Source: Owenia fusiformis (Eukaryota; Annelida; Polychaeta; Sabellida; Oweniidae). Taken from it: a DNA stretch of 64,000 nt. Both the position numbers and the translations under genes were made by a program. Positions within the stretch are counted from its first letter, which is position 1. The number at the start of each line of letters is the position of its first letter. The DNA lies in the NCBI GenBank assembly GCA_903813345.2, contig CAIIXF020000010.1, positions 34,773,425-34,837,424 of the forward strand. Reading direction: 5' to 3'. The notes beneath the pieces were generated by a model. It saw only the letters and a program-made list of their open reading frames with translations, was not told the origin of the DNA and searched no databases. Positions 44,246 through 52,539 of this stretch are shown piece by piece.

Positions 44246-44261
44246 GCTAAAAACATTTGTT
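44246..44261. repeat. Target-site duplication of the LINE, left copy
   Basis: GCTAAAAACATTTGTT here is identical to 48788-48803 and borders the poly-A end of the minus-strand element. The 16-bp length is typical of L1-type target-primed insertion. Confidence 0.9.
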
Positions 44262-44331
44262 TTTTTTTTCTTTTCAATATAGTTTATTTCAGTTTTTTAA
44301 AGTAAGTACAGATACAGTAGTAATAAATCAA

Positions 44332-47300
44332 TTACAATCTTATCATATTCCATTTGTTTTTAAAAAATACATTTTTACGTACATAAATTTCGAATTTTAG
44401 AGTTTTAACAATTCCTTCAAAATTCCGTTTTATTCCATTATTTAATTCTTGGATGTATGCTTTATAGATCACAAATGTTACAATACTAATAAAATAGTTC
44501 AAAAATGCAGTCTGGTTGTCATTTCCATTATAGCCTATTATCAACTTTCTATATGTTATTTTTAAACCTGATATATTAAAGATATATTTCCAAACATTTT
44601 GGGAGAGTGTACATGTGAAAAGCAAATGTTTTAATGTACATACTTCTCCGCACAAACTGCAATTAAATGATTCACTTTTTCCATATAAATGTAAGTCATT
44701 TAGACTAGGAAGGATGTTGTTTATAATCTTATAGTTGAAATTAGCTATTTTCTTTTCTTTACATTTTATCTTTGTAAAAAAAAAGTTTTCCCAATTTATT
44801 TCATCGAAGGTTTCATTATTTAAGAAGCAAAATTCACGTTCCCATTTCTTTTTCATGAACCATTTTTCAGATTGCTTATTTTTCAAAATTTCATAAAAGA
44901 ATTTTGATTTTTGATCTCTAATTTGGAATAAAACATTATTTGCTTTCAATCTGTAATTTGGAATGTTTGTGTATTTTGCTTTATTGACATCAATAAAACC
45001 TCTTGCAATATTCATACTTGAGTTAACTTGATAAAATTCAGAAATCCAATTTTGTTTTTCCTGTAACTTTTGAAAAATGTGGTTGATATCATTAAATGTA
45101 TCCTCTATTATTAGATCCTTTACATAGACAATACCACTTTCAATCCAATTTCTAAAATACAGAGTTTTTTTGTTTACAGTAAACAAACTATTACCCCATA
45201 TAGTCTCTTGCAGGATATCACATGTTTTCATATTTTCAAGATTTTTTTTGTCTTTACATTTGGCATGAGCACATAATACTTGCTGATAAAAAATTGGTAT
45301 TTTCTGAAAGTATTGCAAATCAAAACTATTCATTTTCAATAATACATCAAAATCATTTACAATATTATCAAAATAGAGATATGGTATTTTATTCATCATT
45401 TGTTTTTTATCATATAACCTTGGAATCCAAGCAGCTTTTAGAGCATGCAATTGAGATTCAAAGTCTATCATGTTAAGTCCACCTTTTTCTAATGAATTTA
45501 TAATAATAGTTCGCCTTATTTTATCTTTTCCATCCCAAAGGAATTTATAAATTATTGTATTAGCTCTTTTTACAATTTCATTATCATATTGAAGTATTGA
45601 TGCTGCATAAATCAATTTTGGAAGGGCGATTGATTTTATCACTGTTATTTTTCCAATTAATGTTAAATTCCTCTTTTTCCAAGAATCTAACACTTTCTCT
45701 AATTTTGTTATCCTGTTCAGCCAATTTAGCTCATAACATTTGTCTTTATCATGTCCAATAAAAATGCCAAGAGTTTTTACCGGCTCATTGCTAAATTTTA
45801 TATTTGCAAAGTTATTTTCATTCACTTTACTTCTCCCTAACCAAATTCCTTCAGTTTTGTCTATATTTAGTTCTAATCCAGAAACATAAGAGAATGATTG
45901 AATCGTTTGAATTGCTTGCAATATTGAATCTTTGTCTTTTAAAAATAAATTAGCATCATCTGCATATTGAGAGAGTTTGTATTCATTATTGTTTATTTCA
46001 ATGCCTTTTATGTTAATATTCTGTTTTATTTTAAGTGCAAGGACCTCTGTGCACATAATAAATGCCAAAGCAGATACTGGACAGCCTTGCCGACAGGATC
46101 TTTGCATGTGTATATTTTCAGAAAACCATCCATTTTGTTTTATAGTTACCATTGGTTTTACATAGAGTATTTTTATCCACTTAATAAACTGTTCAGGAAA
46201 ATTGAATTTTTTGAATGTTTCAAAGATGAAATTCCACTCGATACTATCAAAAGATTTTTTAAAATCAATGAATAAAATAGCGCCCTCTTTTTCATAATTT
46301 TCAGCATATTCATAAATATCAAGCGTAAGTCGACAACTATTTCCAATAAAACGATTATTTATATAGGCAGTCTGCTGAGACCCAATTATTTTTGCAATTA
46401 CTTTTTGCATTCGCTTTGCCAAAATAAAAGCTAGTATCTTGTAGTCTGTATTAGAGAGTGAGATAGGTCTAAAGTTTTTCAAAAGTTCCCTATCTCCTTT
46501 TTTAAAAAGTAAACTAATTATAATTTTTCTAAAAGATGGTGGCATTATGCCAGTTTCATAGGATTCATTTATAGCATTTATAACATACAAACTAACATCC
46601 TGCCAAAAGAACTTGTAAAAATTAGATGTAAGTCCATCTGACCCAGGAGATATATTTAACTTCATATTTTTTATCACTGTTAAGCATTCTTCATTTGTTA
46701 CTTTTCCAATCAAAAAGTTTTTGTCATTTTCATCTAATATTTTTGGAAAATTAATGCTATTAAAGTATGTAACAAGCTCTTCGTTAGTGCAAGCTTTAGA
46801 TTTATACAATTCTTTATAGAAGAGAACCTCCTCTTTCATTATCTCTGCATCTGAGGATACAGTTCCAGAGTTTGTTTTTAAAGATCCAATTACATTACTA
46901 CTCTGTCTAGTTTTTTCAAGATTTAGAAATAATTTGCTATTTTTGTCTCCATCTTTTATCCATTCCTGTTTGGATCTCAAAATAGCCCCTGATGTTTTTT
47001 CTATTAAATCATTTTCTAAAGACGTCAATATTGTTGCACGTCTAATTTGTTCAGTTTCTGATAATACATTCATTTTCTCTAAATCCTCAAGTTCATTTTC
47101 CATATCTTTTATCATGGTATTTTTCGAATGTCTCAGTTTAATTGAATATCGAATTGTTTCTTCTTTAATTTTGATTTTAAGATATTCCCATTTTAATTGA
47201 TTAGATTGAAGTTGAGGATTTTTTTGATCATGATGGTATATTATGTGTTTGATCATTTTAACATAGTTGTCATCTTGTAAAAGCAAATTATTGAATTTCC

Positions 47301-48039
47301 AATATCCTGGTCCTTTTTCATTCGAAGTTATATTCAAAGTTAGTAAAAGTATTTTATGGTCTGAGAAAGCAAAATGCTTCTTCTCTTTTTTCAAAATTTT
47401 AAATTGAGCATTTTCTTGAACAAGCATATAGTCAATTCTTGATTTGCTATTACCCTGACGTGACATACATGTGAAACCTTGATGTTTCATCTCATCAATT
47501 AGATCTAAATATTTTATCATATTTTCAAAATACATTCTACTTTGATCATTTTCAAGCACCTGATTTTGTTTGTCATGTTGTGTTCTATCACAATTCATGT
47601 CACCACATACATATACATTTTCAATAAGCCCAATATGTTGTTTGATCTTTTTTGAATTTTGCTTGAAGAATTCAAGCCTTGATTTGGGGTTGTTAGGTGC
47701 ATACATTGAAACAAAAGAAAATATATTATTATTTATCTTTACATTTGCCAATATCATTCTTGCGTCATCACTTTTAAAAGTTTCAATAACACTTACATTC
47801 AAAGTTTCATTGAATAAGATAGAAACACCCCTACTGTGGGGGGAGTTACTCACATTGTGAATTGCTTCCCCTGGCCATTCTTGGTCAATTTCATTTACAA
47901 TTAATTGAGTGATGAATGTTTCTTGGAGAAGAATTACATCAGCATTATACTGCTTGAAAAGGTTAAAGGTTCTCTTTCGCTTTACCTTATCATTTAGGCC
48001 TCTCACATTGAGAGATAAAATTGTAAGTTTTTCTGCCAT
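44332..48039 (-). CDS. LINE ORF2: AP endonuclease and reverse transcriptase
   Basis: The 1235-residue open frame begins MAEKLTILSLNVRGLND, the start of an APE-type endonuclease. Catalytic landmarks are QETF (near 40), GDMNCD (near 145), SRIDYML (near 200) and SDHK (near 225). Reverse transcriptase motifs follow: GSDGLTSNFYK, FRPISLSN, FIDFKKSFDSI, RQGCPVSALAF and the active-site YADDANLF (about 690). The C-terminal region carries C-x2-C...H-x4-C (CSLCGEVCTLKHLLFTC), as in L1/Tx1 proteins. No stop or frameshift is seen, so the protein may be functional. It would nick target DNA and reverse-transcribe its own RNA. Confidence 0.95.
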   Translation of the reverse strand: MAEKLTILSLNVRGLNDKVKRKRTFNLFKQYNADVILLQETFITQLIVNEIDQEWPGEAIHNVSNSPHSRGVSILFNETLNVSVIETFKSDDARMILANVKINNNIFSFVSMYAPNNPKSRLEFFKQNSKKIKQHIGLIENVYVCGDMNCDRTQHDKQNQVLENDQSRMYFENMIKYLDLIDEMKHQGFTCMSRQGNSKSRIDYMLVQENAQFKILKKEKKHFAFSDHKILLLTLNITSNEKGPGYWKFNNLLLQDDNYVKMIKHIIYHHDQKNPQLQSNQLKWEYLKIKIKEETIRYSIKLRHSKNTMIKDMENELEDLEKMNVLSETEQIRRATILTSLENDLIEKTSGAILRSKQEWIKDGDKNSKLFLNLEKTRQSSNVIGSLKTNSGTVSSDAEIMKEEVLFYKELYKSKACTNEELVTYFNSINFPKILDENDKNFLIGKVTNEECLTVIKNMKLNISPGSDGLTSNFYKFFWQDVSLYVINAINESYETGIMPPSFRKIIISLLFKKGDRELLKNFRPISLSNTDYKILAFILAKRMQKVIAKIIGSQQTAYINNRFIGNSCRLTLDIYEYAENYEKEGAILFIDFKKSFDSIEWNFIFETFKKFNFPEQFIKWIKILYVKPMVTIKQNGWFSENIHMQRSCRQGCPVSALAFIMCTEVLALKIKQNINIKGIEINNNEYKLSQYADDANLFLKDKDSILQAIQTIQSFSYVSGLELNIDKTEGIWLGRSKVNENNFANIKFSNEPVKTLGIFIGHDKDKCYELNWLNRITKLEKVLDSWKKRNLTLIGKITVIKSIALPKLIYAASILQYDNEIVKRANTIIYKFLWDGKDKIRRTIIINSLEKGGLNMIDFESQLHALKAAWIPRLYDKKQMMNKIPYLYFDNIVNDFDVLLKMNSFDLQYFQKIPIFYQQVLCAHAKCKDKKNLENMKTCDILQETIWGNSLFTVNKKTLYFRNWIESGIVYVKDLIIEDTFNDINHIFQKLQEKQNWISEFYQVNSSMNIARGFIDVNKAKYTNIPNYRLKANNVLFQIRDQKSKFFYEILKNKQSEKWFMKKKWEREFCFLNNETFDEINWENFFFTKIKCKEKKIANFNYKIINNILPSLNDLHLYGKSESFNCSLCGEVCTLKHLLFTCTLSQNVWKYIFNISGLKITYRKLIIGYNGNDNQTAFLNYFISIVTFVIYKAYIQELNNGIKRNFEGIVKTLKFEIYVRKNVFFKNKWNMIRL

Positions 48040-48210
48040 TATTTATGGTTTTTAATAAAAATATTCATAATAACAGAATACCAAGAAAAACAAAAACAGA
48101 AATATTTACATTTTTTACATATTATACATATCTGTCTATCACTGTGTACTAGTGCAAATACAGTGTTCATGTATTTATATTTACAAGTTAACACTGTAAT
48201 CATCAGATGT

Positions 48211-48783
48211 CTATGAGGGGTCACTGTCATAAGTGAGAGGGGAATAACTGTTGTCAATTTTGGTCTCAAAATGTTTCAGTGGATTTGGTTTCTTTGGGGG
48301 ATGTGATGTAGGTTCAGGTGAATCACGGCTCCTCTTACGTCTGAACTTCCTGAGTTTGGATTTAATCCGTTGTGGAGTACTTTCTTTTCTAATTGGAGAA
48401 GGATGCTCTACAGCGTCACTAAAGACTTCTTCATGCTTAGGTGTGGTAGCAGGAGCTAATGTGACATCAGTTTGAGCATAGGAGATATCAGTTATTTCAT
48501 CATTCAGTGTGGAACGTAATTCCATCAAGTAAGAGCCAACTGTATTCTTGCCAGGCCAATGTTCCTGGTCAGTAGTACATGTTAGTTTTTGGCCAAGTCC
48601 ACTTCCCCATGTTGTTTCAAAAGAGGCCATTGCTATATAGGTATCACCAGTATCGAGCAATGTATCTTTGATCTCAGGGTGCTGTTGTATTTTCTCAGAT
48701 ATCAGTTGTTTCATAATATCTATGTTGTTAATATCCCAATCATCAGTGCATTTGATTTCTTTAGCCATCTCACGGGCCTGCAT
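48211..48783 (-). CDS. LINE ORF1, truncated: NADAR-like domain plus basic tail
   Basis: The frame has 190 codons from the Met at 48783 (195 if the ATG inside the target duplication at 48798 is used; that ATG is host sequence and fortuitous). The first about 90 residues read like the C-terminal half of a NADAR (YbiA/DUF1768) domain: a helix with IMKQLISEKIQQHPEIKDTLLDTGD, then TTWGSGLG and WPGKNTVGSYLMELRS. These match the family's WGxG and W-x-G-x-N-x-x-G-x-x-L-M-x-x-R motifs. The rest is a low-complexity Pro/Thr/Glu segment and a Lys/Arg cluster (RIKSKLRKFRRKRSRD), perhaps for nucleic-acid binding. The N-terminal half of the domain is missing because the insertion is 5'-truncated. No coiled coil or RRM of classical L1 ORF1 is visible. 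Confidence 0.8.
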   Translation of the reverse strand: MQAREMAKEIKCTDDWDINNIDIMKQLISEKIQQHPEIKDTLLDTGDTYIAMASFETTWGSGLGQKLTCTTDQEHWPGKNTVGSYLMELRSTLNDEITDISYAQTDVTLAPATTPKHEEVFSDAVEHPSPIRKESTPQRIKSKLRKFRRKRSRDSPEPTSHPPKKPNPLKHFETKIDNSYSPLTYDSDPS

Positions 48784-48787
48784 ACTG

Positions 48788-48803
48788 GCTAAAAACATTT
48801 GTT
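48788..48803. repeat. Target-site duplication of the LINE, right copy
   Basis: It is identical to 44246-44261 and abuts the truncated 5' end of the element. It supplies an in-frame ATG to the ORF1 remnant. Confidence 0.9.
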
Positions 48804-50237: not shown

Positions 50238-50395
50238 AGTACTAATGATACAATTCATGTCTTATGATAATGATACAATTCATGTCTTATAATAATGATA
50301 CAATTCATGTCTTATAATAATGATACAATTCATGTCTCATAATAATGATACAATTCATGTCTTATAATAATGATACAATTCATGTATTATAATAC
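50238..50395 (+). repeat. Tandem repeat, about 25-bp unit, six copies
   Basis: The word ATGATACAATTCATGTCTTA recurs six times, nearly unchanged. It is non-coding. Confidence 0.85.
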
Positions 50396-50673: not shown

Positions 50674-50854
50674 CAGGCCCGTAGCCAGAATTTTCCAAGG
50701 GGGGGTTCGTTTTTCTAAAAAATTCTAGGGGGGGTTCACTTTGGCAAATATGGCCAAAAATCACTCAAAAATTAGTCAGAATGGTGAAAAACTGCATGAT
50801 TTTGAAAGAAATTTTGGCCAGGGGGGGCCCGAACCCCCCCTGGCTACGGGCCTG
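50674..50854 (+). mobile_element. hAT5-like MITE, complete copy
   Basis: It runs from CAGGCCCGTAGCCAGAATTT to GGCTACGGGCCTG with the 5-bp duplication TTTAT on both sides (50669-50673 and 50855-50859). At 181 bp it serves as the reference for the split copy at 37091-38999. Confidence 0.88.
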
Positions 50855-52539
50855 TTTATTTTATATTTTCTCAAAGACATCTGTGATCATTAAAGTATGA
50901 AGTTTTTCAACCTTGGAAAGTCAAATTAGTAAGTGAGTATGTAAAAACAACCCATGGGGCTTTACTGAAAGAGCAACTTCAACCTTCAACAATTAGCCCA
51001 TGGGCCAATAATGAGTAAGCCTTATAACCAAAAGTAAATTAAGAAAATACATGATTCTATTAGATTCTCAATTAAATGGCATTGTTGAATAATATTGATA
51101 GCCCCTAATTAACTAATTGGCACATTGCATATTTATGCTTACAAATATTGATTATATCCCATAGTATGTCAATCAACACTTTTGATGAATAAGCCACACC
51201 CCTTGTCCAGTTCCAAAGCAATGTGGTCATAAGTCTATAACAAGAACCAAATGATTAAATTCAGTATTTTAAATTGAAACATTTCTCTAAATGAATTATT
51301 GAAACATATGGGTTTATATCAAACAAAGTTTTTAGATATCAGTTTCTGAAACAACTTTGATTTTTTGATATCTCCCCTTAGTGGTTTTTCAAACATTTAT
51401 TCCCAACCAATAGTATGTTATCAGCATCTATAGAAATTAGTTAGTTTAAAAAGCTGTGTACATAAAAATTAAATGGATGAAATCCCATTACAATAATTTC
51501 TGCCTTATCACGCCACTTTACCATTTCTGTTTAAAATTTGAATCAAGTTCTTGATATTTTTATATATCTAAAGAGTTCATCACATGGCTATTAAATCACT
51601 CTTTACTGATTTTACATCCTCCAATCACAGGGTTTCAAAATCCAGAATATATTCTTTCTTTATACCCCCTGCGATAAGCAGTTGTCATTTCCCCGATTAA
51701 GAACTCGCAATCTGATTGGCTGTCGCAACATATGTATAAGTCATTGCGCATAATTAGATCACGTGATTCAGTTTAATCAGGCGCTTCCAAATTGGTTATA
51801 GCAGGGGGAAGAAGGAGGTACAGTTTCTGGACAACTGCTTAGGAGGATGCTGATTTTATTATTAATAAACTTTTAAATTAATTGATCCTTTTTGTCGGCA
51901 CACTAATATTTGATTGAACAAAATAACATCGTTTTGATGCTAAATATATACTAGACCATTGTTTTAGAGTTTTGGCTGCGCTAAACCTGAGCACACTACA
52001 CAGAATATAAGTTCAGTTGAAAAGGATGCCTGCATCAAAATGGCAGCAAAGGGTATAGAGTATAAGATTTCGGGAACAATCTTTCCATAGAGCATTCCTA
52101 TGTTTTACATTATCATCCATAATTAATATCTAAAAAGAATTTAGGATTTTGACCATACCTGAGATTAATTGACAAATTAAGATTTAAGTGTCTAAATGAC
52201 AGATTTTTTTTCAAATGATATTAAATTGTTATGATATGAAATCAAGATATTTCACATTTCAGAAATGGGTGCTATAAAGAATTCTTTCTTTCCAGCAAAA
52301 AATATTGCAACAATTTAAAAAAATACCCTAAATTCATCTCCGTTTTCAGTGCATTACAAGTTACTGTGGAAACAGGCAAAAATAGAATTACATGTATTTT
52401 AATTAATCCTTTGTAATCACTTTATAGGGGCAACAAGGGCTGTAGAGATAAAATTCAAAAGTTTATATTTTTCTGAGCTATCAGGTCAATATTTGGCTTA
52501 ACATCTTCTTTGACATACCTATTTTCTTAAAATATATGG

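Follow-up and report, generated by a model that had tools for sequence, protein, structure and literature searches.

A NADAR domain as the C-terminal ORF1 module of a young L1-group LINE in Owenia fusiformis

Results

The LINE copy in the window

The DNA analysed here (the window) is a stretch of 64,000 nt from the genome of Owenia fusiformis. A LINE copy was found on its minus strand, bounded by a duplicated target site. Its features are listed below, with L007 denoting a complete copy of the same element on another contig.

44246..44261, no strand: target-site duplication GCTAAAAACATTTGTT, 3'-end copy; perfect 16-bp direct repeat
44262..44275, minus strand: A-rich 3' tail (T-rich on the plus strand); similar tail in L007
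44262..48787, minus strand: LINE copy, 5'-truncated; 99.71% identity to L007 (4529 aligned bases, 13 mismatches)
44335..48042, minus strand: ORF2, open frame of 1236 aa (stop to stop) with L1-group endonuclease and reverse transcriptase (Pfam)
45763..46500, minus strand: RVT_1 reverse transcriptase domain (Pfam, E = 1.5e-31)
47356..48018, minus strand: Exo_endo_phos endonuclease domain (Pfam, E = 2.8e-13)
48214..48504, minus strand: tail of ORF1, by eye rich in Lys/Arg and Pro/Ser; nothing matched in Pfam at E <= 1
48214..48787, minus strand: ORF1, C-terminal part only, corresponding to residues ~296 to 487 of L007 ORF1
48505..48783, minus strand: NADAR domain, C-terminal part (PF08719 positions 68-162 of 163); the N-terminal part is present in L007
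48788..48803, no strand: target-site duplication GCTAAAAACATTTGTT, 5'-end copy; perfect 16-bp direct repeat

An earlier note, made from the letters of this DNA, had described 16-bp duplications around the element, NADAR motifs in the frame upstream of ORF2 and a Lys/Arg-rich tail behind them, and all of these were found again, the tail by eye. Both motifs lie in the minus-strand frame at 48211-48801 (196 residues). The profile search that the note had suggested was carried out on this frame, and residues 7-99 matched positions 68-162 of the 163 positions of PF08719 (Pfam, E = 2e-18, 67.6 bits against a cut-off of 35.1). This match is far above chance.

Because the 16-bp duplication places the start of the element (48787) inside the NADAR domain, the window element is a 5'-truncated copy. 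Missing from it are residues 1 to ~295 of ORF1, and thereby the N-terminal portion of NADAR together with the active-site residues E43 and K50 discussed below. Each of the five codons at the start of the frame is wholly or partly flanking DNA. The structure predicted for the truncated protein, which was aligned with 15 bacterial NADARs, was a poor model (mean pLDDT 64.6, pTM 0.43); when it was compared with the PDB, there was no match at E <= 0.001, and neither of the two matches at E <= 10 was a NADAR.

Two other repeats were seen elsewhere in the window. A 25-bp tandem repeat occupies 50243-50394 (6.1 copies, 96% matches), and an inverted-repeat-like pair, CAGGCCCGTAGCCAG and CTGGCTACGGGCCTG, flanks a short G-rich stretch at 50677-50860 and looks MITE-like by eye.

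The complete element and its near-identical copies

The host genome (498 Mb, 525 contigs) was searched with the 196-aa frame. Five matches were obtained, namely the window, two near-identical copies (L006 and L007) and two weak ones. In L007, on contig C6, ORF1 and ORF2 are both open. Its ORF1, 487 aa from stop to stop, contains in this order an N-terminal region, a CCHC knuckle (Pfam zf-CCHC, E = 4.5e-6), a near-complete NADAR domain (PF08719 positions 20-162 of 163, E = 1.7e-21, 77.6 bits against the cut-off of 35.1) and a basic tail. Thus, a full-length copy with the complete domain, which the earlier note had proposed to look for, exists in the same genome. The same note had supposed that NADAR stands in place of the usual ORF1 domains; this did not hold, since L007 ORF1 has the CCHC knuckle and an N-terminal region common to other LINEs of this genome. 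Searches of Pfam and of the PDB gave no RRM match in the N-terminal region upstream of the zf-CCHC match. RRM and CCHC together make up the ORF1 type I of Khazina and Weichenrieder, as given in PMC4120745.

ORF2 of L007 is open for 1236 aa and is 99.4% identical to ORF2 of the window. Among solved structures, it was nearest to human LINE-1 ORF2p (2.3e-83), the best R2 match being 3.1e-15. An 11-bp candidate target-site duplication was found for L007, one copy directly after the A-rich tail and the other ~380 bases before the start of ORF1. The element thus has the marks of the L1 group: an endonuclease and a reverse transcriptase (RT) nearest to L1 ORF2p among solved structures, an A-rich tail and a target-site duplication. 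Within that group the family is presumably Tx1-like, by analogy with the literature.

The second near-identical copy, L006, lies on contig C78; its ORF1 is truncated, and its ORF2 frame is 230 aa long. In a DNA search with ORF1 and the spacer, NADAR was found in all three near-identical copies that extend upstream of ORF2 (window, L006 and L007), and a fourth copy, a 74% identical relic, matched the ORF1 tail only. It can be concluded that the window family is a young L1-group LINE carrying NADAR as the C-terminal module of ORF1. The proposal that NADAR was captured as the ORF1 of this LINE is therefore retained as regards the presence of the domain, which recurs in 3/3 copies, and is corrected as regards its extent, since NADAR is one module of ORF1 and not the whole of it.

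NADAR loci across the genome

A PF08719 profile search of the genome, in which all 26 candidates were scored, gave at least 24 matches, 23 of them above the cut-off; the counts that follow are lower bounds. The 24 matches correspond to 22 loci, of which 21 are LINE ORF1s of two architectures and one is a host gene. Type I comprises four loci (window, L006, L007 and L038, the last with a broken ORF1), and type II comprises 17 (L020-L034, L036 and L037). ORF2 homology on the same strand was present downstream of 4/4 type I and 15/17 type II loci. For two type II loci, L023 and L027, this homology is a fragment several kb off; for L028 and L034 it was not seen in the stretch fetched, and these two are assigned to LINEs by the likeness of their ORF1 alone. 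L007, L020, L021, L022, L024 and L026 each combine a NADAR-bearing ORF1 with a long open ORF2 of 1236-1275 aa.

The type II ORF1 consists of a coiled-coil-like N-terminus, a conserved middle region and NADAR at the extreme C-terminus. By eye, the middle region presumably resembles L1 ORF1p, a likeness that Pfam and the PDB did not support: Transposase_22, by which an ORF1 of type II in the published classification (coiled coil, RRM and CTD) would be recognised, was neither among the Pfam families shown for five members (25 of 44 shown) nor found in the PDB profile search. The matches seen were coiled-coil-like only. In L029-L032, ORF1 and ORF2 are separated by a stretch of 3.2-3.8 kb. Much of this stretch in L032 (2342-4534) consists of tandem repeats of ~110 bp, which are common to L031.

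The remaining locus, L035, appears to be a host NADAR gene split over two or more exons, with 2.7 kb between the two seen, and no ORF2 match was present in the 7 kb fetched. The existence of this apparently intron-split gene is what could be said for a one-off transduction of a host NADAR gene; chance likeness was also considered. Against both stand the E value of 2e-18, the 21 LINE loci and the other copies, and against a host source also the fact that the nearest rows to L035 were bacterial NADARs (50% identity to L112) and not those of the LINEs. Both were rejected as very improbable.

Relatives were also sought in viral contigs by back-translation of a single protein, and none was confirmed; the alignments contained no stretch of sufficient conservation for an alignment-based scan.

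The C-terminal slot of ORF1

The genome was searched with the RT of L007, which gave 132 scored copies out of 3017 first-look candidates. From these 132, 20 copies were chosen for a long open ORF2 or high RT identity, and their upstream 2.3 kb were fetched; the set is a selection and not a census. The profile search found NADAR in the upstream DNA of 0/20. An ORF1 of the GDSL kind was present in six (L045, L046, L049, L050, L051 and L056), a CCHC knuckle with no enzyme domain in one (L055) and an L038-type tail in one (L044, in which 676 bases align with the L038 family tail at 97% identity), and 12 had no recognised ORF1. When six of these regions were submitted to Pfam, a GDSL lipase/esterase domain was above the cut-off in L045, L049, L051 and L056 and below it in L050 (E = 6.8e-5), and L055 had CCHC alone. 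L046 was placed with the GDSL kind by its alignment to L049 (1543 bases, 64%).

Residues 36-245 of L007 ORF1 aligned with L050 ORF1 at 1e-16, and overlapping parts aligned with L045, L049, L051 and L055. All of these alignments end by residue 251, which is the start of the NADAR match. Judged by such comparisons, the C-terminal slot of ORF1 is swappable: neighbouring LINE families have a GDSL esterase where the window family has NADAR. Among 14 further copies of the window family and its neighbours, likewise a selection, a recognised ORF1 or NADAR was found in 0/14, and the ORF1 of the families whose RT is 64-68% identical to that of the window was not found among the copies examined. In one of the stretches fetched, L142, a truncated LINE copy is directly preceded by an open frame of 407 aa (1-1221) that by eye looks like another LINE-type reverse transcriptase.

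RT and NADAR trees

The RT tree (31 rows, midpoint root) grouped the window family with families of unknown ORF1 and with the L063/L064 family at 94/92, slightly below the 95/80 mark. L064 was counted as type I solely because the DNA upstream of it (L044) matches the L038 tail at 97% identity. This group adjoins a clade of five GDSL rows and three rows of unknown ORF1 (100/99). The type II RTs fell in the other half of the tree and were flagged for long branches. When the 12 NADAR-labelled RTs were constrained to one group, the resulting tree was rejected (AU p = 1e-131). The distribution of NADAR is thus not that of a single RT clade, and no firm number of captures follows from it.

In the NADAR tree, type I formed one group (99/97) and type II another (100/99). 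Two histories were weighed: two captures, or one ancient capture, by a LINE of the L1 group, followed by recombination that moved the domain between the two ORF1 architectures. A NADAR tree that gives both types a single origin was not rejected (AU p = 0.43), which is consistent with one capture. However, in the best NADAR tree the types are apart: type I is grouped, on long branches, with three phage NADARs (99/92). Their RTs, too, occupy separate regions of the RT tree. A single capture is a tentative reading to which we give somewhat better than a one-in-three chance.

Selection on the NADAR domain

dN/dS was computed for 13 NADAR pairs; the pairs of the window with L007 and with L006 were left out, since their rows include flanking residues. 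Two of the ten type II pairs were usable, and six had saturated dS. The ratio was 0.078 for L027/L028 (150 codons, dS 1.18) and 0.15 for L020/L026 (dS 2.3, near saturation). Among young type II pairs, it was 0.28 on four changes for L022/L024 and 0.60 on three changes for L029/L030, and the type I pair L007/L006 gave 0.55 on three changes. In a clean comparison of the window with L007, one synonymous and one replacement change were counted in 190 ORF1 codons, against three and eight, respectively, in ORF2. Purifying selection on NADAR was thus observed for type II only, in two usable pairs.

The NADAR active site

According to PMC11543638, NADARs hydrolyse guanine-ADP-ribose; in the Phytophthora nicotianae enzyme, contacts to the distal ribose come from E43 and E125 and those to the phosphates from K50, and the equivalent residues of the E. 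coli C7 NADAR (E88, K95 and D171) matter. Efficient activity of the latter is lost on substitution of D171 by A or N, and E88A (equivalent to E43) has a minor effect in vitro yet does not rescue cells. For the N-glycosidase YbiA, four critical residues are mentioned in PMC9303266; from their spacing, these appear to be E43, the W before the middle helix, D130 and W133.

The P. nicotianae numbering was transferred through an alignment of L021 with PDB 8bau and an alignment of 39 rows. The reference rows, a small and chosen set, were eight phage records picked from two tblastn lists and 20 bacterial loci out of the 49 obtained with one YbiA-like query. E43, K50, E125, D130 and W133 were all kept in 28/28 of them. 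By eye, the clostridial NADAR frames L128, L130 and L132 continue into an apparent macro domain.

Type I was represented by two rows, one intact copy (L007, with E, K, M, E and W at the five positions) and one broken copy (L038, with E, K, L, D and W). Type II was represented by eight of its 17 loci (L020, L021, L024, L026, L027, L028, L029 and L032), near-copies and broken ones being excluded. In these eight rows, E43 is replaced by T, S or A, K50 is K, R or Q (Q in 4/8), E125 is kept in 8/8, D130 is D, E or N (D in 6/8) and W133 is kept in 0/8. In the host gene L035, E125, D130 and W133 are conserved; the exon expected to encode E43 was not located.

The set E43, K50 and E125 (or D in the last place, as in D171 of C7), by which a hydrolase would be recognised, was thus complete in neither type, and the effects of changes at these three residues are those measured in NADARs other than the LINE ones. 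Because neither architecture keeps all five residues found in 28/28 phage and bacterial NADARs, a role as a plain ADP-ribosyl hydrolase is doubtful. The four positions that appear to be critical in YbiA are all kept in L038, and L007 has E for D130. Type I may thus still act as an N-glycosidase, as most of what YbiA seems to need is kept. In type II some activity could remain, by analogy with the E. coli C7 NADAR, because there E88A had only a minor effect in vitro.

Discussion

A LINE with a NADAR-bearing ORF1 is already in print. The earlier note knew of no description of such an element, but a 2025 paper (PMC12477816) reports that the ORF1 proteins of several Crassostrea gigas Tx1 LINEs in Repbase appear to be YbiA-family NADAR domains, a description that the window element fits. 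The comparison can be made by description only, as the statement there takes one sentence, which does not go into the architecture of ORF1, its active site, selection on it or any link with esterase ORF1s. Beyond that paper, no other report of NADAR in transposable elements was found in the portion of the open-licence PMC literature consulted, in which PMC7853720 deals with host genes. What is added here is the swappable slot beside esterase-bearing relatives, the two architectures, selection in two pairs and the altered active site.

Several known systems resemble the element in part. An LTR retrotransposon with a captured NADAR shares the capture, whereas the type of element, the protein concerned and the position of the domain are different. 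The esterase (type IV) ORF1 of CR1/L2 LINEs such as ZfL2-1 (PMC3905857, PMC4120745) is likewise an enzyme-derived ORF1 module, with a GDSL/SGNH fold instead of NADAR; the cases described in those sources are CR1/L2, whereas the GDSL-bearing LINEs of Owenia belong to the L1 group and have CCHC knuckles. The NADARs of E. coli C7, Geobacter lovleyi and P. nicotianae treated in PMC11543638 are of the same family and share E43 and K50 with type I, which differs from them in having M or L at E125/D171 and in lying within ORF1p. Nematode SNA-3, a component of the SL1 snRNP in the account of PMC9303266, has animal NADAR domains in an RNA-protein particle and is a precedent for NADAR in an RNP; unlike the LINE protein, it is the product of a host gene, has three NADAR domains and acts in trans-splicing.

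The best explanation of these results, to which we give a probability of about one in two, is that the young L1-group LINE would use the NADAR of its ORF1 as a binding module of the RNP, with ADP-ribose or a related molecule as the ligand and hydrolysis weak or changed. The N-terminal region, the knuckle and the basic tail would let ORF1p coat the RNA of the LINE; NADAR would provide the RNP with a pocket for an ADP-ribose, ADP-ribose-like or nucleic-acid ligand. The pocket may be used to dock on or sense host ADP-ribosylation, for example at DNA ends marked by PARP, or on RNA that is modified or NAD-capped. With the full conserved active site kept in neither LINE type, any hydrolysis is probably weak or altered.

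The earlier note had suggested that the element reverses ADP-ribosylation or counters an NAD-based host defence, an idea that the altered active site, as read from the alignments, has weakened. As an active enzyme of counter-defence, NADAR would be predicted to remove ADP-ribose from guanine in the LINE RNA or cDNA, or from proteins of the RNP, and so to undo a PARP-type restriction by the host. The activity of NADARs on guanine-ADP-ribose (PMC11543638), the proposal made in PMC9503650 that NADAR domains of animal RNA viruses counter host ADP-ribosylation, and the retention of E43, K50 and W133 in type I all agree with such a role. It is nevertheless unlikely, at perhaps half the weight of the binding module, since the E125 position of type I is occupied by M or L, and the E. 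coli C7 NADAR depends on the corresponding D171 (PMC11543638); type II has lost E43 and W133 in 8/8 rows and has Q at K50 in 4/8.

A slightly less probable alternative is that the domain is purely a nucleic-acid-binding or folding module, which would make multimer contacts of ORF1p or contacts with RNA and would have no ADP-ribose ligand. The loss of active-site residues in both types and the basic tail adjoining NADAR are in line with this, as is the report in PMC9303266 that NADAR domain 1 of SNA-3, itself in an RNP protein, lacks key residues. However, E43, K50 and W133 in type I, and E125 (8/8) and D130 (6/8) in type II, amount to more of a pocket than scaffolding needs.

The binding-module reading can be extended to a wider and decidedly speculative one, which we hold to be improbable as it stands. 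The C-terminal slot of LINE ORF1 would take folds of enzymes at the interface with the host, such as GDSL esterase and NADAR, and the NADARs of the two architectures, having apparently lost complementary parts of the active site, would now read ADP-ribose and so let host ADP-ribosylation guide the retrotransposon RNP.

With L007, in which both ORFs are open, the role of ADP-ribose in retrotransposition and that of ADP-ribosylation as a host defence become testable with one element.
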